Source: Arthrobacter sp. AQ5-05 (GTDB taxonomy: Bacteria > Actinomycetota > Actinomycetes > Actinomycetales > Micrococcaceae). Taken from it: 64,000 nucleotides of DNA. The stretch lies in contig NZ_QMKQ01000004.1 of NCBI RefSeq assembly GCF_003287975.1, positions 124,001-188,000 of the forward strand. Reading direction: 5' to 3'. Position 1 is the first letter of the stretch, and each line of letters starts with the position of its first letter. Made by a program: the position numbers and the translations under genes. The notes below the pieces were generated by a model, which was not told the DNA's origin, ran no database searches, and saw only the letters and a program-made list of their open reading frames with translations. Below, piece after piece: positions 22,598-31,700 of this stretch.

Positions 22598-22659
22598 GCC
22601 CGGTCGCATTTCCCTGGTTTCGAGAAATACGAAGCAGGGGACGTGCGGCCGGGCTTTTT
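22598..22659 (+). terminator. Large rho-independent terminator of dedA
   Basis: GCCCGGTCGCA (22598-22608) pairs with TGCGGCCGGGC (22644-22654; one G-U), with an inner stem CCCTGGTTTCG / CGAAGCAGGG, followed directly by TTTTT (22655-22659). One of the strongest terminators in the window. Confidence 0.9.
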
Positions 22660-24818
22660 GCTGACCGGCGAGGGATGGCGAGCAGGCCCGTGCCTGAATG
22701 ATCCCCCCCCCCGGGTTCCTGGAGACAGCGGTCTCGTGCGGCCGGAGGCTGGCGACGTGGGTCAGGGAGAAACCGACCAAGAGGTCTCGAGGTCTCTGTG
22801 CGGTCCGAGAGCGGCGGGTCGTCGTAGGTGCCAACGCTGATTCCCGGGCGATCTTCTTTCAGGTTGCGGGGCTCGCCGAACCCGTGAGCGTGGCCGACAC
22901 CATGGCCGTAGAGACCCTGGACCCCTCGATCAACGGTTTCTCCTGCTGCCGCATGAACGATGCGACCATGGCCCAGGGCGTGAACCTCTTGGCTGCACGA
23001 TGGATCCTGGACGGGAATCGAGGCGGTGGCACCTATGCCGCCACCGGGGACCGCGGCCACTTGCTTGAACGGATGGACAGCGCGTTCATTGCCCAAGACA
23101 TCAAACCGCTGGTCAGTGAGGCGAATAGGCAGGCATTGATGCCGAGACGCAGGAACGGGAAGGTCCGCCGGCCACTGGCTGCCGACGCGCCCGAAAGGCG
23201 TGTCCGATCATGAAGACGACCCCTCGCCGACCCCCGAGCTGCGCAGCCCTACCAAGAACTACCGCAACGGCTGCGCACTGGACTCGGATGCCTTGTCCCC
23301 GAATCATGACGTCCCCGGGGGGAAGTCCGGAAACAAGGAATGCGGGGCAGCCGTGGCATCGGCAGGACCACCCCGGGAAGAATCTTCGGGGTTGGGGATT
23401 CCCGACCAACGGCGAGGCACTGGCCCACGGACTGTCTCCGTACAAAGCCGGCGAGACGCCGTATGGATCTGCTTCACCCTCCAATCGCAGGAGCCTTCCG
23501 ACGACTTCGGCGCGCGTCAAGCTTTCCAGGCCGGCCGGGGAATCTGTCTTCCTGGATTGTGGCGGGCGCGAGGATGGTGCCCATGCCGTCCTCAAGGGCC
23601 AGGATCGTCGCCTGAATTCGGAGCAGTGAGGCCGCCACCAGCGCCAAGGACTCGCCCCGCTGATGCGCAGCGTCCGGCGTCGTACCGTGCGCTGAGAGTC
23701 CGAAGAGGGCGCATGGGCACGTGGGGCGGGGGTTCCGCGAAGCGGTGACACGGCGATGTTACGCCGGCCGGAGGCCAAAGCCACTGATGATGCCCTGGGC
23801 CTGTTCGCTGTCACGGTGGAAACCAGTCCGGTTGGCCCCGCGAGGCGCTCCAGCTGCAAGCGGCGCCAGTTCACCCTGCCACAGCCGAGGAAAGCGTCAC
23901 GGATCGTGGCCGGGGCGGCGAAGGTGGCCTTCAGGGAGCTGGAATCGATCGGAGAAGTCAGGACTTGAGGTTGACGTGGCCGCACCGGGGCATCCGGCAC
24001 GATGGCGACCTTGGCGCTCCAAGACGGTGGCTCGGCGCAAAATGCCATGCGCGGGGCGCTGGAGCTGGCCGGTGGCACAGCCAAGCCGTTCCCGTACCTG
24101 TGGGGTGCGCAGCTTGGCCGGGGCACGGAGACTGGGCGGACGATGGCCCCGCCAGGCCGGCGAGAAGCCGCTGCTGTCCAAGGAAATCGACGGCACTCGC
24201 GCACCGCCGTATGGACACAACGCGGTGTAGGCGAACGACTGGCAACGCAAGCCGGCAGCGGACCTCGATGCGTGCGTGGTGTGTGTCCAGGGTTGACCGG
24301 GCCCCGCCGCCACACTGTTGGTTGGATCCAGGCGCCGCATGCCCATGGGCGGGGGCTGCGAGGCGGTGCGCGAAGACCTCCCGTCGGCCCGCGGCCGGCG
24401 AAGAAGGCCTGCAGCGCAGAGCCGGCTGCTCGGGGTGTTGGCTGCCGCCCGGCGGCGGATAGCCGAGCGCCTCGAAGACGTCGGTGGCAATGCGAATGCC
24501 GGTGTCCTCCCTGCCGCCGGGCCTCACAGAAGGCCATTGGCATGAATTGGCCATCGGTGAGGGTTCTGCCAGACCCCGACCCGGGTGGATGGAAATGCCA
24601 GACGGCCCGCGGCTTATGCGGAACGAGCTGTCGCAACAAGGCGTCTTGCCCTTCAAGGTGCGTGGCACAAATCGTTTCACCCTGTTTGGTGGCCGAGGCG
24701 ACAAGGAGACCGTCGACGGACCGAACCATTCTTCAAGCTGATTCAAGGACTGCTTGCCAGCTGACCACGGGGCGCTGAACGGTTGCGGCCGGAAGGATCG
24801 ACGACGTTGCCGGGAACG
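22660..24818. other. 2.1-kb stretch without a convincing gene
   Basis: Six-frame reading gives several long open frames (for example plus 22698-23213 and minus 23113-24729), but their products are Arg/Pro/Ser-rich, match no family, and hold no signal, membrane or catalytic motif. Local pieces look more protein-like (minus strand near 24.6-24.7 kb, VDGLLVASATKQGE; near 23.8-23.9 kb, GRVNWRRLQLERLAGP) but in interrupted frames, consistent with decayed genes. A C10 run is at 22703-22712. No transposase, tRNA or repeat boundary was found. Confidence 0.5.
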
Positions 24819-25076
24819 CTAGGCCAGTGAGAGGAAGAGCTTTTCCAGGTCGGCGCGGTCGGCTGTTGGGTCCTCGCTCTTCAGGCACTGCTCCAACCCG
24901 GTGGCGATGATGGAGAAGCCGGCGCGGTCGATGGCCTTGGAGGCCGCGGACAGCTGGGTGACGACCGTGCGGCAGTCGCTGCCTTCCTCGAGCATGCGAA
25001 TCACCGCGTTGAGCTGTCCTTGGGCGCGCTTGAGCCTGTTGATTGCGGGCTTCAGGGTGTCCGCTTCAAGTTCCAT
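24819..25076 (-). CDS. cstR: CstR-type persulfide-sensing repressor (CsoR/DUF156 family)
   Basis: 85-residue all-helical DNA-binding regulator. Two cysteines only: C35 (EEGSDCRTVVTQLSA) and C64 (LEQCLKS). The copper ligand His of CsoR, four residues before the second Cys, is Gly here, so this is the CstR branch, which forms di- or trisulfide cross-links with persulfides and leaves DNA, rather than the Cu(I) sensor branch. ATG 25076 was chosen over an upstream frame extension because GGAAGGAACC precedes it and the family starts here. It is divergent from the Cys-rich gene, with two GC-core palindromes between them, so autoregulation is likely. Confidence 0.9.
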   Translation of the reverse strand: MELEADTLKPAINRLKRAQGQLNAVIRMLEEGSDCRTVVTQLSAASKAIDRAGFSIIATGLEQCLKSEDPTADRADLEKLFLSLA

Positions 25077-25113
25077 GGTGGGTTCCTTCCGGGTGCTGGC
25101 TTTCTCCAAGTGT

Positions 25114-25127
25114 ATACCCCCGGGGGT
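25114..25127. promoter_or_regulatory. CstR operator-like site 1
   Basis: ATACCCCCGGGGGT: one complete half-site and a shortened right half (GGGGGTTT instead of GGGGGTAT). It lies 37 nt upstream of the cstR start, overlapping the likely -10 (TATACA on the minus strand). Inferred autoregulatory site. Confidence 0.7.
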
Positions 25128-25155
25128 TTCTTTGGGTGTCGACACAGCCAATTCC

Positions 25156-25175
25156 ACATACCCCCGGGGGTATGT
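25156..25175. promoter_or_regulatory. CstR operator-like site 2 (perfect palindrome)
   Basis: ACATACCCCCGGGGGTATGT is a perfect 20-nt palindrome with the GC core flanked by AT ends typical of CsoR/CstR operators. It lies 64 nt upstream of the Cys-rich protein start, just before a possible -10 (CATACT, 25178-25183). Confidence 0.85.
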
Positions 25176-25239
25176 GCCATACTTGAGCCCAGGGGGGTGG
25201 TCACGCCCCCTCGATCACCTAAGACCGAAAGAGAACCAC

Positions 25240-25416
25240 ATGTGCCGAACGACCAAATGCCGCAAGTGCCAGAAGACCACCTGGGCCGGATGCGGCCAGC
25301 ACGTCAAGCAGGTCATGGCCAATGTGCCGCGCAGTGAACGCTGCTCCTGCGATCCAAATGCCCCGAAAGCACCCAGCAGCGAAGGCGGGTTCTTCGCGCG
25401 CCTCTTTGGCCGCTAG
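25240..25416 (+). CDS. Small six-cysteine protein in the persulfide locus
   Basis: 58 residues: C2, C7, C10, C18, C35 and C37. The N-terminal KCRKCQKTTWAGCGQHV resembles a small family often found encoded beside CstR/CsoR-type repressors in actinobacteria; the C-terminal tail GGFFARLFGR is amphipathic. It could be a zinc-ribbon or a sulfane-sulfur/metal carrier; there is no experimental role I know of. It has its own operator upstream and a strong terminator 23 nt after the stop, so it can be made as a separate short transcript. Ribosome site AAGAGAA. Confidence 0.85.
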   Translation: MCRTTKCRKCQKTTWAGCGQHVKQVMANVPRSERCSCDPNAPKAPSSEGGFFARLFGR

Positions 25417-25438
25417 GCCCGGCCGCTCCGTGCCGTGC

Positions 25439-25479
25439 GGCGGTCGGCGCCAGCTTGAATGGTGCCGACCGCCCTTTTT
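25439..25479 (+). terminator. Rho-independent terminator of the Cys-rich gene
   Basis: GGCGGTCGGCGCC (25439-25451) pairs with GGTGCCGACCGCC (25461-25473; one G-U), followed by CTTTTTG. It separates the small gene from the downstream persulfide operon promoter. Confidence 0.9.
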
Positions 25480-25517
25480 GCAGGGCAAACGATCCCGGGT
25501 ACCGGGCAATGGATGAC

Positions 25518-25546
25518 TTGACGCATACCCCCAGGGGTATTATTGT
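25518..25546 (+). promoter_or_regulatory. Promoter of the cstB operon with operator inside the spacer
   Basis: TTGACG (-35, 25518-25523) and TATTGT (-10, 25541-25546) are separated by exactly 17 nt. The palindrome ATACCCCCAGGGGTAT (25525-25540) fills that spacer, so a bound repressor would exclude RNA polymerase. Confidence 0.8.
25525..25540. promoter_or_regulatory. CstR operator-like site 3
   Basis: ATACCCCCAGGGGTAT, identical to site 4 which begins 36 nt downstream. It is located between the -35 and -10 boxes of the cstB promoter. Confidence 0.85.
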
Positions 25547-25560
25547 TTGAAGTGGAGCTG

Positions 25561-25576
25561 ATACCCCCAGGGGTAT
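25561..25576. promoter_or_regulatory. CstR operator-like site 4
   Basis: Second exact copy of ATACCCCCAGGGGTAT, in the untranslated leader about 15 nt after the expected transcript start and 34 nt before the cstB-like ATG. The 36-nt start-to-start spacing is near 3.5 helical turns. Confidence 0.85.
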
Positions 25577-25609
25577 GAAGCGCAAGCAGACCAACAACAA
25601 GGAGAACCA

Positions 25610-27007
25610 ATGCTTCTCGAACGCATCTATGACGAGGACCTCGCACAGGCCAGCTACCTCATTGGCTGCCAGGCCAAGGGCGAGGCCGTCGTGGTGGACG
25701 CCCGCCGCGACATCCAGGTGTACCAGGATCTTGCCGCAAAAAACGGCATGGAGATTGTCGCAGTCACCGAAACCCATATCCACGCGGACTACCTTTCGGG
25801 AACCCGGGAGCTGGCCGCGGCAACCGGTGCAAAGATCTTCGTCTCGGGCGAGGGCGGGACGGACTGGCAGTACGAGTTCGAGGCCGAACGCCTCCTCGAC
25901 CAGTCCACCATCACCCTGGGCAACATCACCGTCACCGCCCTGCACACCCCCGGACACACCCCCGAACACCTTTCCTTCCTGGTCACCGACGGCGCCTTCA
26001 GCGACAAGCCCGGCTTCCTGCTCTCGGGCGACTTCGTCTTCTCCGGCGACCTGGGCCGCCCGGACCTGCTCGACGAGGCCGCTGGCGGAATCGACACCCG
26101 CTTCGCCGGGGCCCACGACCTGTTCACTTCCCTGAAGGAAAAGTTCCTGACCCTGCCCGACTACGTGCAGGTTTACCCGGGCCACGGCGCCGGCAGCGCC
26201 TGCGGCAAGGCGCTGGGCGCGATCCCGTCCTCCACGGTCGGGTACGAACGCAACTTTGCCTGGTGGGGCCCCTACCTGGAGCCAAACGACGAGGCCGGTT
26301 TCGTCGAGGCCCTACTTGACGGGCAGCCCGACGCCCACGCCTACTTCGGCCGCATGAAGCGCGAAAACCGCCAGGGCCCGGCCGTCCTGGGCGATCGTGC
26401 ACCGCTGGCCGAGCTGGCCACCGGGGATGTCGCCGCCGCCCTGGCCGCCGACGAAATCGGCGTGGTCGACACCCGCCACCACACCCTGGTCCACGAGGGC
26501 ACCGCCGCCGGGGCACTGAACATCCCCGCCGGGACCAAGGCCGCCAGCTACGGTGCCTGGGCCGTGGACCCGGAAACGGACCAGCGCCCGCTGGTGCTCT
26601 TGGCTCCGGACAGCGAGAGCGCCACCGAGATGTGGGACCACCTCATCCGTGTGGGCATAGACAAGGTTGCCGGATACATCACGTCCCTGGACGGCCTGCC
26701 GGTCTACGTGCCTCGCACGATCTCCCCTGCCGAGCTGGCAGGGTTCGATGCCACCCTGCTGCTGGATGTGCGCAACAAGACCGAGCACGCCGCCGGGCAC
26801 GTGCCGGGTTCCGAGCAGCTCAGCGCCGGCCGCGTGCTCTGGAACACCGACAACCTTCCATCCGACGGCGTGATCGTGAGCTACTGCCAGTCCGGGGTGC
26901 GCAACTCCGTGGCTGCCTCCGCCCTGCGCCGTGCCGGGTTCGACATCGTCGAGGTCGAGGGCAGCTACGCCGGATGGGCCAACTGGAAGCAGCTGCAGGA
27001 CGCCTAG
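25610..27007 (+). CDS. cstB: CstB-like persulfide dioxygenase - rhodanese fusion
   Basis: 465 residues. An N-terminal metallo-beta-lactamase persulfide dioxygenase domain (1 to about 230) has the metal site H56-x-H58-x-D60 (THIHADYLSG), H116 (HTPGHTPEH), D147 (FSGDLGRPDLL) and H192 (YPGHGAGSACG). A first rhodanese domain (about 280-360) lacks the catalytic Cys (LLAPDSES) and is a pseudo-domain. A second rhodanese domain (about 375-465) carries the active Cys C426 (SYCQSGVRNS). The same three-module order occurs in S. aureus CstB, which oxidises low-molecular-weight persulfides to thiosulfate and sulfite products. It is first gene of the operon under two CstR-type operators. Confidence 0.92.
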   Translation: MLLERIYDEDLAQASYLIGCQAKGEAVVVDARRDIQVYQDLAAKNGMEIVAVTETHIHADYLSGTRELAAATGAKIFVSGEGGTDWQYEFEAERLLDQSTITLGNITVTALHTPGHTPEHLSFLVTDGAFSDKPGFLLSGDFVFSGDLGRPDLLDEAAGGIDTRFAGAHDLFTSLKEKFLTLPDYVQVYPGHGAGSACGKALGAIPSSTVGYERNFAWWGPYLEPNDEAGFVEALLDGQPDAHAYFGRMKRENRQGPAVLGDRAPLAELATGDVAAALAADEIGVVDTRHHTLVHEGTAAGALNIPAGTKAASYGAWAVDPETDQRPLVLLAPDSESATEMWDHLIRVGIDKVAGYITSLDGLPVYVPRTISPAELAGFDATLLLDVRNKTEHAAGHVPGSEQLSAGRVLWNTDNLPSDGVIVSYCQSGVRNSVAASALRRAGFDIVEVEGSYAGWANWKQLQDA

Positions 27008-27050
27008 CGTTCTCCACCGCCCATCCCTCCCCCATAAATTCCACCTATTC

Positions 27051-27086
27051 CCGGTCCCGCATCCCCCTTTCCGGATGCGGGACCGG
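27051..27086 (+). other. Perfect 14-bp intercistronic hairpin
   Basis: CCGGTCCCGCATCC (27051-27064) pairs exactly with GGATGCGGGACCGG (27073-27086) over an 8-nt loop. No U-tract follows and the next gene starts 37 nt later, so it looks like an RNA-processing or 3'-end-stabilising element (or partial attenuator) rather than a full terminator. Confidence 0.75.
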
Positions 27087-27122
27087 CCGGGCGCCATGCC
27101 CGGCAGAAAGGGCCCACAAGCC

Positions 27123-27707
27123 ATGAACCCCATTCCCCAGACCACCAGCCCCGAAGAACTCAAGGACTGGATCGCCACCGGCTCCGACGTCGTGGTGCTT
27201 GACGTGCGCTCCGCCGCCGAATTCGAATCCCTGCACATCTCGGGCTCCTACAACGTCCCCCTCCCGTTGTTGGCCGAACACACCGAGGAACTTGCTTCGA
27301 AGCTCGACACCAAGGTGGTGCTGGTCTGCCAATCCGGCGTGCGCGCCACCGAAGCCAAGACAAACCTCGCGTCGGTCGGATTCGGCAACGCCCACGTCCT
27401 GGCCGGCGGCGTCCCCGCCTACAAGCAGGCCGGCGGCCGGACCGTTGAAGGTTCCAAGCGCTGGGACCTGGAACGCCAGGTGCGCATGGCCGCCGGTTCC
27501 CTGGTGATCGCCGGACTGGCCGGGGGCAAGTTCCTCTCCCCGCAGATCCGCACCGTTGCCGGGGTCATCGGGGCGGGACTGACCTTCTCCGCGGCCACCA
27601 ACACCTGCGCCATGGGCAAGGCCCTGGCCAAGATGCCGTGGAACAAGACCGGCAACGAACCGACCCGCGCGTCGGTCCTCGCCCAGCTTCCGCCCAAGAA
27701 GTCCTAG
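27123..27707 (+). CDS. Rhodanese with C-terminal membrane hairpin (YgaP-like)
   Basis: 194 residues. N-terminal rhodanese domain (about 5-110) with active cysteine C69 (LVCQSGVRAT). The C-terminal part (about 118-165) has two hydrophobic segments (MAAGSLVIAGLAGGKFLS and VAGVIGAGLTFSAATNTCAMG), a DUF2892-like membrane anchor. This matches YgaP, a membrane sulfurtransferase. ATG 27123 has AAAGGG upstream. It likely moves sulfane sulfur at the membrane for the upstream dioxygenase. Second gene of the persulfide operon. Confidence 0.88.
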   Translation: MNPIPQTTSPEELKDWIATGSDVVVLDVRSAAEFESLHISGSYNVPLPLLAEHTEELASKLDTKVVLVCQSGVRATEAKTNLASVGFGNAHVLAGGVPAYKQAGGRTVEGSKRWDLERQVRMAAGSLVIAGLAGGKFLSPQIRTVAGVIGAGLTFSAATNTCAMGKALAKMPWNKTGNEPTRASVLAQLPPKKS

Positions 27708-27714
27708 CACACAC

Positions 27715-27784
27715 CCGGTTGGCCCGCCGCCAACCGGATTCCTCCCGGTTTCCGGGCCCGGGTCGCGTTGATCCGGGCCCGGAA
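27715..27784 (+). other. Two consecutive perfect hairpins between rhodanese genes
   Basis: CCGGTTGG / CCAACCGG (27715-27737) and TTCCGGGCCCGG / CCGGGCCCGGAA (27750-27784) are both perfect stems. Neither ends in a U-tract. Together with the hairpin at 27051 they segment the operon mRNA. Confidence 0.75.
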
Positions 27785-27827
27785 GGCACCCACATACCGC
27801 TTGAACACGCCCCCGAAGGAGCAGACC

Positions 27828-28124
27828 ATGCCCGAAATCACCATCACCGACACCGACCAGCGACGCGCCACGGACCAGCTCATTGACGTCCGCGAAGACT
27901 TCGAAATCACCGAGGGCATGATCCCCGAAGCCATCCACATCCCCATGGGCGAGCTCAACACCCGCCTGGGCGAGATCGACCGGACCCGCCCCGTCATCGT
28001 CATCTGCCGCAGCGGCAACCGCAGCGCCCGTGTCGCCGATGCCCTCACCGGGGCCGGATTCACCGCCGACACCATGGCCGGCGGCATGACCGCCTGGCAA
28101 CGCGCCGGCCTGCCCGTCACCTAA
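27828..28124 (+). CDS. Single-domain rhodanese
   Basis: 98-residue sulfurtransferase. One rhodanese domain with active C60 in the loop CRSGNRS, preceded by the DVRED acidic motif and followed by GGMTAWQRAGLP. It is cytoplasmic with no anchor. AAGGAG lies 7 nt before ATG 27828. The R-S-G-N-R-S active loop is of the GlpE/PspE type and could pass persulfide sulfur to cyanide, thiols or the CstB-like protein. Third gene of the persulfide operon. Confidence 0.9.
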   Translation: MPEITITDTDQRRATDQLIDVREDFEITEGMIPEAIHIPMGELNTRLGEIDRTRPVIVICRSGNRSARVADALTGAGFTADTMAGGMTAWQRAGLPVT

Positions 28125-28186
28125 AGCCACGCACCGGCGCCACCCCGCACGCACTCCTCCCTTCCTCCCCAGACAAGGCCCCTTCC

Positions 28187-29083
28187 ATGACCCTCACCCT
28201 CGTACTGACCCTCCTGTTTTCGGTGCTGATCGGGCTCTCGCTCGGCCTGCTCGGCGGGGGCGGGTCCATCCTCACCGTCCCGATCCTCACCTACGTTGCA
28301 GGCATGAACCCCAAGGAAGCCATCGCCGCCTCGCTCTTCGTCGTCGGCGCGACCTCCGCCGTCAGTGCGGTGACCCACGCCCGCAAGAAGCGCGTCAAAT
28401 GGCGCACCGGGCTCGTCTTCGGGGCCGCCGGCATGGCCGGGGCCTTCGGCGGCGGCCTCCTGGGGGGCCATATTCCCGGAACGATCCTCATGATCGCGTT
28501 TGCCCTCATGATGGTCGCCACCTCCCTGGCCATGATCCGCGGCCGCAAGGACCGCACCACCGTGGCCCACGACGGTGAACTCCCCGTGCTCAAGGTCATC
28601 CTCGAGGGCCTGGTCGTGGGCCTGGTCACCGGGCTCGTCGGCGCCGGCGGCGGTTTCCTCGTCGTTCCGGCACTCGCCCTGCTCGGTGGCTTGTCGATGC
28701 CCGTCGCGGTCGGCACCTCGCTGGTGGTTATCGCCATGAAGTCCTTCGCCGGACTTGGCGGCTACCTCACCACCGTCTCCCTGGACTGGGCATTGGTCGG
28801 CGGGGTCACGGCCGCCGCGATCCTTGGTTCCTTCCTCGGCGCCCGGCTGGCCGGACGGATCCCCGAAGCGGCCCTGCGCAAGGGCTTTGGCTTCTTCGTC
28901 CTGGCCATGGGCGTCTTCGTCCTCGTCCAGGAACTGCCCTCCCCGGCCAACCTCATCCTGGGCATCACCGCCGGCGCAGCCGCGGCGGTTGCGGCGCTGT
29001 GCTGGTTCGTGATCCCCGCCTGCCCCCTGCGGCGCAAATCGCCCACACCCCCTGCCGCCAACATGGCAACCGAAGCCCGCTAG
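28187..29083 (+). CDS. TauE/SafE sulfite exporter family protein
   Basis: 298 residues with about eight membrane helices. TauE/SafE signatures: LGLLGGGGSILTVPIL and its repeat GLVGAGGGFLVVPAL (the two inverted repeats, each with the glycine-rich turn). In cst-type loci such proteins are thought to export sulfite or related sulfur anions formed by the dioxygenase. Fourth gene of the operon, 62 nt after the rhodanese. Confidence 0.92.
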   Translation: MTLTLVLTLLFSVLIGLSLGLLGGGGSILTVPILTYVAGMNPKEAIAASLFVVGATSAVSAVTHARKKRVKWRTGLVFGAAGMAGAFGGGLLGGHIPGTILMIAFALMMVATSLAMIRGRKDRTTVAHDGELPVLKVILEGLVVGLVTGLVGAGGGFLVVPALALLGGLSMPVAVGTSLVVIAMKSFAGLGGYLTTVSLDWALVGGVTAAAILGSFLGARLAGRIPEAALRKGFGFFVLAMGVFVLVQELPSPANLILGITAGAAAAVAALCWFVIPACPLRRKSPTPPAANMATEAR

Positions 29084-29138
29084 TCTCCGGCTCCCCGCCG
29101 TGTTGCCCCTCCCGCCCCGGCACCCCTGGAGTCCGCGC

Positions 29139-30467
29139 ATGAAACCGTCCACCACCAAGATCCTCCCCGTCCTGGGCCTGCGCGCCAACGCGGCCCAGTT
29201 CGCCTTGCTTGTCGCGGTCAACGCGCTGGTCGGCGGGATGGTCGGGCAACAGCAAACCGTCCTTCCGCTGCTGGCCCACGCGGAGTTCGGCCTGAGCGGA
29301 TACACGTTCCTCTTCGCCTACGTGGCCGCCTTCGGGATCGCCAAGGCAGCCTCCAACTGGTTCGCCGGGACCCTCTCGGACCGCTACGGACGCAAACCCG
29401 TGCTGCTGGCCGGCTGGCTCTTCGCCATTCCGGTGCCGCTGATGCTCATCTTCGCCCCGGACTGGGGCTGGGTCGTCGCGGCGAACGTGCTGCTGGGCAT
29501 CAACCAGGGCCTGACCTGGTCGACCACCGTCATCATGAAGATCGACCTGGTGGGTCCGGCGCAGCGCGGCCTGGCCATGGGCCTGAATGAGGCCGCCGGG
29601 TACGGGGCCGTGGCAGCCACCTCCCTGCTGGCCGGATACCTCGCCGAGCAGTACGGGCTGCGCCCCGCACCCTTCCTCCTGGGCCTGGCCTACACGGCCC
29701 TGGCCCTGCTGCTGTCGGGGGTGTTCGTCCGGGAGACCCGCCCCCACGCACTCCTGGATGCCGGAAACATGGCATCCCGCGGCACCTCCGTGAGCCATGG
29801 CATGGACTCCGACCCGACCAACCGCCAGGTCTTTGCCCTGGCCAGCTTCCGGGAACCGGCCTTGTCTTCGGCGAGCCTGGCCGGATTGGTGAACAACCTG
29901 AATTTCGGACTTTCCTGGGGCCTGTTCCCGCTCCTGTTCGCCACCGCGGACCTCGGCACCAGCCAGATCGGCCTGCTCTTCGCCCTGTATCCCGGGGTGT
30001 GGGGCATTGGCCAAATGTTCACCGGTGCCCTCTCGGACCGGATCGGGCGCAAACACCTCATCACCGCCGGCATGTTGGTCCAAGCCACAGCCCTTGCCCT
30101 CATCGCCCTCGGAAACGGCTTTGGCGCCTGGGCATCGGGAACCGTATTGCTCGGCGCGGGAACCGCCATGGTCTACCCCACGCTGCTGGCCGCCGTCGGC
30201 GACGTCGCACACCCCGTGTGGCGGGGACGGGCAGTGGGCGTCTACCGGGTGTGGCGTGATCTCGGATATGCCGTCGGCGCCATCGCCGGCGGGATCATTG
30301 CCGACCTCATGGGGATGCACGCGGCCATCTGGATGGCAGCGACCCTCAGCGCAGCCGCGGCCCTGGTTGTCGCGATCCGCATGTATGAAACACACCTGCC
30401 GCATCCCCGGCCGGACCACGCGGTCGATACCGCCGCAATGCTTCCGCCCGATCGACCCAACACGTAG
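29139..30467 (+). CDS. MFS transporter
   Basis: 442 residues, 12 predicted helices. MFS motif A is present in both halves (GTLSDRYGRKPVLL and GALSDRIGRKHLI), and NQGLTWSTTVIMKIDLVGPAQRGLAMGLNEAAGYG is typical of the drug/solute branch. ATG 29139 (GGAG 8 nt upstream) was preferred over the frame start at 29100. It lies 55 nt after the TauE/SafE gene and is probably the same transcript; the substrate is unknown, perhaps a sulfur compound. Confidence 0.85.
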   Translation: MKPSTTKILPVLGLRANAAQFALLVAVNALVGGMVGQQQTVLPLLAHAEFGLSGYTFLFAYVAAFGIAKAASNWFAGTLSDRYGRKPVLLAGWLFAIPVPLMLIFAPDWGWVVAANVLLGINQGLTWSTTVIMKIDLVGPAQRGLAMGLNEAAGYGAVAATSLLAGYLAEQYGLRPAPFLLGLAYTALALLLSGVFVRETRPHALLDAGNMASRGTSVSHGMDSDPTNRQVFALASFREPALSSASLAGLVNNLNFGLSWGLFPLLFATADLGTSQIGLLFALYPGVWGIGQMFTGALSDRIGRKHLITAGMLVQATALALIALGNGFGAWASGTVLLGAGTAMVYPTLLAAVGDVAHPVWRGRAVGVYRVWRDLGYAVGAIAGGIIADLMGMHAAIWMAATLSAAAALVVAIRMYETHLPHPRPDHAVDTAAMLPPDRPNT

Positions 30468-30554
30468 CATGGGCACGGAGCCGAGGGATCCTGCCATGGC
30501 GGACCCCGCAGCCGCCCAGGCAGGCCTCCGCACCACGAGCCCAGGAGAAACACC

Positions 30555-30965
30555 ATGACGTACACCCACGCCATCACCGTCCCGCTGTCATGGCGAGATG
30601 CCGTCGCCAGGACCCGCGGCGCCCTTGCAGAACAGGGATTCGGTGTCCTGACGGAAATCGACGTGAAGGAGACCTTCACCCGGAAGCTGGGCCAGGAAGC
30701 AGGGGACGCCGTGGGGGACTACATCATCCTCGGGGCCTGCAACCCGCAATTGGCCCAACGCGGCATCACCGCCGAACCACAGTTGGGCGCGCTGCTCCCA
30801 TGCAACGTCGTCGTGCGTCGCGCCCCCGAGGCCACGGAAACCACCATCGAGGCCATCGACCCGCAAACCCTGGTCCAACTCAGCCCGGGCGATGCGACAC
30901 GCGAGGTCGCCAACGATGCCGACGCCAGAATCCAGGCGGCACTGAAGGAAATCTCAGGCAGTTAG
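30555..30965 (+). CDS. DUF302 domain protein
   Basis: 136 residues. DUF302 core: ALAEQGFGVLTEIDVKETFTRKLG, ILGACNPQLAQRGITAEPQLGALLPCNVVV and a C-terminal ATREVANDADARIQ helix; the conserved ACNP cysteine is C60 or thereabouts. DUF302 proteins are commonly encoded with rhodanese, persulfide-dioxygenase and DsrE-like genes, so it likely belongs functionally to this locus. Function not established. A Shine-Dalgarno AGGAGAAA lies 6 nt upstream. Confidence 0.9.
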   Translation: MTYTHAITVPLSWRDAVARTRGALAEQGFGVLTEIDVKETFTRKLGQEAGDAVGDYIILGACNPQLAQRGITAEPQLGALLPCNVVVRRAPEATETTIEAIDPQTLVQLSPGDATREVANDADARIQAALKEISGS

Positions 30966-31469
30966 GGCCCCGAGGCCGACCCGGACGGCGGTGGTCGAGG
31001 ACGGTGCTGTCGGAACGCCGCGGATGCACTGTTCCGTGCGCAGGCCGGATTCCCGCGTGCGAATGATTCCCGTGGGCGTGAACCGGCCGCTTTCCAAGAG
31101 CCAGACGGTGGTGGGCACATCACCTGTGTCGCCCATCGAATGCAGGGCGAATGAACGGTGCGGAGCGTTGGTGCCCGCGTGGCGTCCGGTTGGGCGCAAA
31201 GGCCCCGGCCGGACCGTCTGGAATGCCCACTGGTCTTCACCACACCGAATTGGACGGGCCCCGGCCGAAAATCGCCTGCATGCGCCGCCGGCTGTCCACC
31301 GTGCGGGCAGCCGGCGGGTGGATCTGCCCACGGGTCCGGGCCGGCGTGCCTGGTCGGCCGCGCGGCCCTCGACGGTTCCCCCCAAGACGAAGACCACGGC
31401 AACCTGCCGTGCTTGCTGCCGGCGGGGAAGGACGCGGAGCATGGGTGGAGGCTTCGGGAAGATATCTGT
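30966..31469. other. Region without a supportable gene
   Basis: About 500 nt between the DUF302 gene and a decayed oxidase fragment. Open frames exist on both strands (for example minus 30954-31442) but none shows a family motif. A short protein-like stretch (minus strand, HSMGDTGDVPTTVWLLESGRF near 31.1 kb) has no assignable identity. Confidence 0.4.
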
Positions 31470-31700
31470 TCATCGCTCTTTGGCCACCGCGTGCAAGCCC
31501 GTGTCCTCGTGGGGCAGCATGTGGCAGTGGTGGACGGACTTCGGTGAAATCGTCGAAGGCGAACCGTACGACGCCGCCGGTGCCGACCGGAACAATGACC
31601 GGGTCCTGCCATTGGCGGGGTTCCGGCACGGCCCGCCCGCTCGAAGATCTGCGTATGCCGCACGTGTGGATGCCCTGGGTGGGTGACGGCGCAGGTGTTG
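31470..31700 (-). pseudogene. Decayed C-terminal fragment of a multicopper oxidase
   Basis: In three different minus-strand frames one reads, in order, HPGHPHVRHTQIFERAGR (corrupted HPxHxHG type region), QDPVIVPVGTGGVVRFAFDDFTE, then VHHCHMLPHEDTGLHAV, the type 1 copper motif HCHxxxHxxxG. Together they match the last ~80 residues of a periplasmic multicopper oxidase, but with at least two frame changes, a damaged first motif and no upstream partner. Relic only; no function expected. Its place beside the sulfur/metal-stress locus suggests a former copper-detoxification module. Confidence 0.65.

Follow-up and report, generated by a model that had tools for sequence, protein, structure and literature searches.

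Between positions 24819 and 30965, the window analysed here (64,000 nucleotides of Arthrobacter sp. AQ5-05, positions 124,001 to 188,000 of contig NZ_QMKQ01000004.1) carries a compact group of genes that is best read, from its sequence, as a CstR-type persulfide detoxification locus (Table 1). A sequence-only reading had recognised a DUF156 repressor with two cysteines and a Gly at the position of the CsoR His, and this holds: the protein is devoid of His, and its nearest PDB chain is 7mq1 (E 4e-9). The CstB-like dioxygenase-rhodanese fusion named in the same reading is likewise present, with Lactamase_B and rhodanese domains in Pfam and alignments over nearly its whole length with PDB 3tp9 (E 1e-101) and 3r2u (E 2e-79), the latter of which we take to be a staphylococcal protein. 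Its metal motif and active-site Cys (the three motifs in Table 1) align with both structures and, given the fusion of a metallo-β-lactamase-fold domain to a rhodanese, the enzyme would be classed as a type III persulfide dioxygenase. Pfam also found the membrane rhodanese, small rhodanese, TauE/SafE exporter, MFS transporter and DUF302 protein where they had been placed. The repressor combines the DUF156 fold, two conserved cysteines without the copper His, and operators in front of sulfur-detoxification genes, and control of the locus by a CstR-type repressor is likely. On both flanks of the cassette, 22600-24800 and 31000-31700, a simple score of codon positions suggests few credible genes, and these stretches are possibly decayed sequence.

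Table 1. Features of the cst-like locus, in window coordinates.
Feature	Position	Strand	Basis
cstR, CstR-type DUF156 repressor, 85 aa (amino acids)	24819..25076	-	PF02583 E 4e-21; Cys35, Cys64, Gly60
Near-perfect operator (13/14) ATACCCCCGGGGGTTT, cstR side	25114..25129		sequence reading
Operator ATACCCCCGGGGGTAT, 66 bp upstream of small gene	25158..25173		exact pattern match
Small cysteine-rich gene, 58 aa, unnamed family	25240..25416	+	dN/dS; relatives in 27/39 genomes
Terminator-like hairpin, 14 pairs, T-rich tail	25439..25473	+	terminator scan
cstB operon promoter TTGACG-17-TATTGT, operator inside spacer	25518..25546	+	promoter scan
Operator ATACCCCCAGGGGTAT	25525..25540		exact pattern match
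Operator ATACCCCCAGGGGTAT, second copy	25561..25576		exact pattern match
cstB-like persulfide dioxygenase-rhodanese fusion, 465 aa; THIHADY at 55, ACGK at 197, CQSGVR at 426	25610..27007	+	Pfam, PDB alignment
Rhodanese with YgaP-like membrane segment, 194 aa	27123..27707	+	Pfam
Small rhodanese, 98 aa	27828..28124	+	Pfam
TauE/SafE exporter, 298 aa	28187..29083	+	Pfam
MFS transporter, 442 aa	29139..30467	+	Pfam
DUF302 protein, 136 aa	30555..30965	+	Pfam

Four operator copies had been counted in the two control regions. Three of these are perfect 16-mers, a pattern that did not occur in any of 100 shuffles, while the fourth is near-perfect. One was said to lie exactly between a -35 and a -10 box, and it does indeed fill the 17-base spacer of the sole promoter-like match in the stretch scanned (shuffles averaged 0.2). 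Terminator-like sites numbered two against a shuffle mean of 0.8, and the second of them is itself an operator palindrome. What the sequence-only reading had passed over is the 58-aa gene within the control region, together with the terminator-like hairpin 3' of it; with these two elements present, the first control region is one shared by a divergent pair of genes. The genome scan for further 16-mers that it had proposed was run, and the whole draft genome holds four perfect copies, three at the locus and one 66 bp upstream of a second copy of the small gene. A third copy of the small gene diverges from a thioredoxin gene around a single 13/14 operator (contig 8; 4752-5363 of the stretch taken), and as such a 16-bp operator stands upstream of all three copies in the genome. 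A 15-bp palindrome, ATACCCCAGGGGTAT, is found immediately 5' of a 61-aa open reading frame (ORF) without Pfam match (contig 33; 4239-4253 of the stretch taken). The genome also encodes a second CstR-type DUF156 protein without the CsoR His (contig 6, 121912-122118), with a 12/14 site nearby; about 2-4 kb away are genes for two pyridoxal phosphate (PLP) enzymes, one carrying a CBS domain and the other belonging to Cys/Met metabolism, both of them possible H2S producers.

The small cysteine-rich gene is the least explained part of the locus. It looks to be under purifying selection: ten comparisons that covered 37 codons gave ratios of nonsynonymous to synonymous substitution (dN/dS) of 0.06-0.35, with dS high in several of these comparisons. 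The family gave no sequence match in NCBIfam, PHROG or PDB, and its sole match in Pfam, to NRIP1_repr_3 (E 0.0028), is below threshold at 18.3 bits against a cut-off of 27. The literature searched yielded no description of the protein's family, nor any of the protein as a target of CstR. Counting the source genome, relatives are present in 27 of 39 related genomes and in 36 of 296 genomes sampled across the phylum, and the genome collection holds at least 564 confirmed places. The best-scoring 80 of these, a sample biased for that reason, are referred to below as the named loci; two of them carry the label of Acidobacteria metagenome-assembled genomes, a label for which misbinning is a possible source. 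The plasmid matches belong to actinobacterial genera, among the matches listed, and in 38 of the 40 listed plasmid records (out of 76 with a match) no gene is listed beneath the match in a gene table that is incomplete by design. A further relative lies on an unverified metagenomic record labelled ‘Bacteriophage sp.’ (MT835623.1, 19139-19300), with no operator of at least 12/14 in the roughly 300 bp upstream.

Could this ORF, instead of encoding a working protein, specify a leader peptide rich in Cys through which cstB is attenuated? A short ORF rich in Cys, followed by a terminator-like hairpin ahead of cstB, is what such a leader would look like. However, conservation extends to residues other than Cys (K12, T14, W15, G17, G19 and H21 are invariant in a 58-row alignment), dN/dS stays below 0.4, and cstB has a promoter-like site of its own. 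Furthermore, the genes that follow the other two copies in the genome lie on the opposite strand, and 18 operator-bearing copies are without any tested neighbour in the fetched stretch. We consider a leader peptide extremely improbable.

The 119 distinct copies for which sufficient upstream sequence was available all keep C2, C7, C10, C18, H21 and C35, and each has exactly one of C37 (57 copies) or H38/H39 (62 copies). It should be noted that the search motif imposed C7, C10, C18 and H21 and favoured C2 without insisting on it, while C35 and C37/H38 were left open. A swap between Cys and His at a single position is characteristic of metal ligands, and the conserved set with this exchange in 119/119 copies, four of its ligands being imposed by the search, makes metal binding by the small protein plausible. 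Two AlphaFold models place strands at residues 3-6 and 13-16 and a helix from 19 or 22 to 26, with a mean pLDDT (AlphaFold's confidence score) of 81-88 over residues 1-30 and a low-confidence tail. The product is read here as a CstR-controlled small metal-thiolate protein. Alternatively, it might shuttle sulfane sulfur between rhodanese and dioxygenase on free cysteines, with no bound metal. The invariance of Cys at position 2 (119/119) and the frequent proximity of rhodanese, dioxygenase and thioredoxin genes would suit such a carrier, whereas His38 or His39 in place of C37 in 62 of 119 copies is easier to reconcile with a metal ligand than with a cysteine that relays sulfur; we regard a metal-free carrier as unlikely.

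The association between the gene and the operator extends well beyond this genome. An operator of 13-14/14 was found within 200 bp of 65 of the 119 copies, compared to none in 1190 shuffles and none in 114 windows taken 1 kb downstream. Of the 70 perfect 16-mers in the 39 genomes, 22 precede a copy by no more than 200 bp and 26 fall within 700 bp past its start (the position which in the window corresponds to the cstB promoter). A further 6 come within 10 kb of a copy, which leaves 16 at other places. By ORF reading, several of these last 16 adjoin genes for DUF156, dioxygenase, rhodanese, thioredoxin or glutaredoxin-like proteins, and others adjoin genes without an obvious sulfur role (aquaporin-like, helicase-like, IclR-like). 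Across the 296 genomes of the phylum, the small gene (36 genomes) and the perfect 16-mer (39 genomes) co-occur in 16, more than by chance (Fisher p 5e-7, uncorrected for kinship). One 2.9-Mb genome of the same phylum contains 22 perfect 16-mers, which could reflect either a repeat or a candidate regulon of exceptional size; the small-gene search matched nothing there.

A rival reading takes the small gene to encode a metallothionein, for copper or for metals in general, that is controlled by a copper CsoR. In the RicR copper regulon of Mycobacterium tuberculosis, MymT is a small cysteine-rich protein under a CsoR-family repressor, a likeness to our protein that is one of description, and likely metal ligands, an operator of the CsoR-family type and, in 4 of the 80 named loci, a copper ATPase no more than 6 kb away would all agree with such a role. 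The spacing of the operators does not. The published copper CsoR motif is a TAC...GTA inverted repeat around G/C tracts, as at our locus, but of the form TAC-N9-GTA, which equals a 17-mer, while our sites are TAC-N8-GTA (PMC3902906). Of the 65 operators before small-gene copies, 62 have a spacer of 2 nt (the 16-bp form) and three a spacer of 1 nt (15 bp), and none has the 3-nt spacer of the 17-bp copper CsoR form. Moreover, none of the 46 perfect copper-type 17-mers in the 39 genomes lies within 10 kb of a small-gene copy. In the source genome itself, one of the two perfect 17-mers stands directly 5' of a P-type ATPase gene and the other about 1.2 kb before another P-type ATPase gene, while 13/14 versions stand 5' of its two CsoR-type genes. 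Among 59 collected DUF156 sequences, reading the list revealed the CsoR His in these two copper-type regulators only, the DUF156 neighbours of the small gene being without it. As such, we deem a copper metallothionein very unlikely.

The genomic neighbourhood also points to sulfur. In 49 of the 80 named loci there is a DUF156 gene no more than 6 kb away, against about 1% for a random point by a rough estimate (four full-length genes in 4.6 Mb). Fifty of these loci have the operator; in 25 more the small gene follows a sulfur-defence gene of the same orientation by at most 600 bp; and five have neither. For 21 loci no match to any of 26 reference proteins was found nearby, and as 18 of them still bear the operator, these copies are likely distal targets of the regulator.

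How would such a system work? We propose that reduced CstR sits on the 16-bp operators and thereby blocks three transcripts: that of cstR itself, a separate one for the 58-aa protein, and the dioxygenase-rhodanese-TauE-MFS-DUF302 operon. By analogy with the published Streptomyces coelicolor ScCsoR, sulfane sulfur would modify Cys35/Cys64, upon which CstR would be released. The CstB-like enzyme and the rhodaneses would then convert persulfides to sulfite, which TauE would export. The small protein is most likely a compact metal-thiolate protein, probably binding zinc, in which a hairpin-helix core would carry C7, C10, C18 and H21, while C2, C35 and C37 or H38/39 would form another group of ligands. 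A Cys at position 2 would become N-terminal if the Met is removed, as is usual, which would leave C2 as a free N-terminal cysteine. As persulfide rises, the protein may serve as a buffer or an acceptor for sulfane sulfur, or may shield metal thiolates; it is assigned to the persulfide response because its actinobacterial relatives often adjoin sulfur-defence genes or sit behind the same type of operator.

We give a probability of about 0.72 to the reading of the locus as a persulfide/polysulfide-defence cassette under a CstR-type repressor, with the small protein as part of the response. Several observations weigh against it. No 13-14/14 operator precedes 54 of the 119 copies; in the phylum, 20 of 36 genomes with the small gene are without a perfect 16-mer, and 23 of 39 with a perfect 16-mer are without the small gene. 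In loci where the small gene and cstR point away from each other, the operator may belong to cstR only. In 30 loci of the phylum-wide draw, our own included, the operator was found in only 7, a sulfur neighbour in 15 and either in 16, leaving 14 with neither operator nor detected sulfur neighbour, and the link is thus weaker in this draw than in the 80 named loci. In addition, the conservation of four ligands is built into the search, and the models of the small protein gave no significant match among solved PDB folds.

The cassette as a module is not new, since both its gene set and its regulatory principle with the 16-bp site have been published (PMC6305408, PMC7533328). The rhodaneses, MFS and DUF302 genes, which the sequence-only reading had regarded as additions, belong to the gene set described for the SUL module on the Antarctic Arthrobacter plasmids pA8H1, pA40H2 and pA58H2, so that this part of the claim falls (PMC6305408). 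The available passages of that paper discuss the module in terms of sulfur metabolism and possible energy gain, and contain no operators, CstR assignment or analysis of the small protein (PMC6305408). Our alignment of pA8H1 with window positions 24818-30958 shows 88.9% identity over 6153 columns, from the cstR end to the DUF302 end, which coincides nearly exactly with the interval of the sequence-only reading, and the corresponding operators are present in the plasmid. This is the sole alignment between the window and a 14.2-kb stretch of pA8H1 at E 1e-10, and because the shared sequence is confined to the cassette, it looks like a horizontally moved unit; a recombinase gene past the module in pA8H1 likewise makes the unit look mobile. 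The further claim of an actinobacterial equivalent of the cst system stands as regards the CstR-type locus, but such an equivalent is already published for S. coelicolor (PMC7533328). There, a CsoR-like repressor senses sulfane sulfur through Cys37/Cys66 and 16-bp ATACCn6GGTAT sites are found, two of them before the dioxygenase gene (PMC7533328). A two-Cys repressor, a type III persulfide dioxygenase (ScPDO), a rhodanese, TauE and the 16-bp sites are common to both systems; the circuit comprises four genes, and the passages at hand make no mention of a small cysteine-rich protein, MFS or DUF302 (PMC7533328). A Thermus thermophilus relative of CsoR that controls sulfur oxidation is described as using another motif (PMC10318464).

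The cst operon of Staphylococcus aureus, in which CstR is a DUF156 persulfide sensor, shares this sensor and a CstB-like fusion enzyme with our locus, while the gene sets differ; we know of no relative of the small protein in that system, although no search aimed at one was made.

The locus adds one more member to a known kind of cassette; what makes it of interest to specialists is the small cysteine-rich protein, which suggests that the persulfide response has a part not yet characterised. Tentatively, and at somewhat less than an even chance, we propose that its family constitutes an undescribed, widespread, actinobacterial group of very small metal-thiolate proteins, whose N-terminal Cys may be free, which are core and sometimes distal targets of CstR-type sensors, and which act as a missing effector (a buffer or acceptor of sulfane sulfur) of the persulfide response. 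The publications consulted describe actinobacterial persulfide modules as consisting of sensor, dioxygenase, rhodanese and exporter. If the small family is a regular target, this description misses a component that is often absent from gene tables. Furthermore, if the proposed control is true, operator spacing of 16 versus 17 bp would split the sulfur from the copper regulons of CsoR-family proteins in these genomes.

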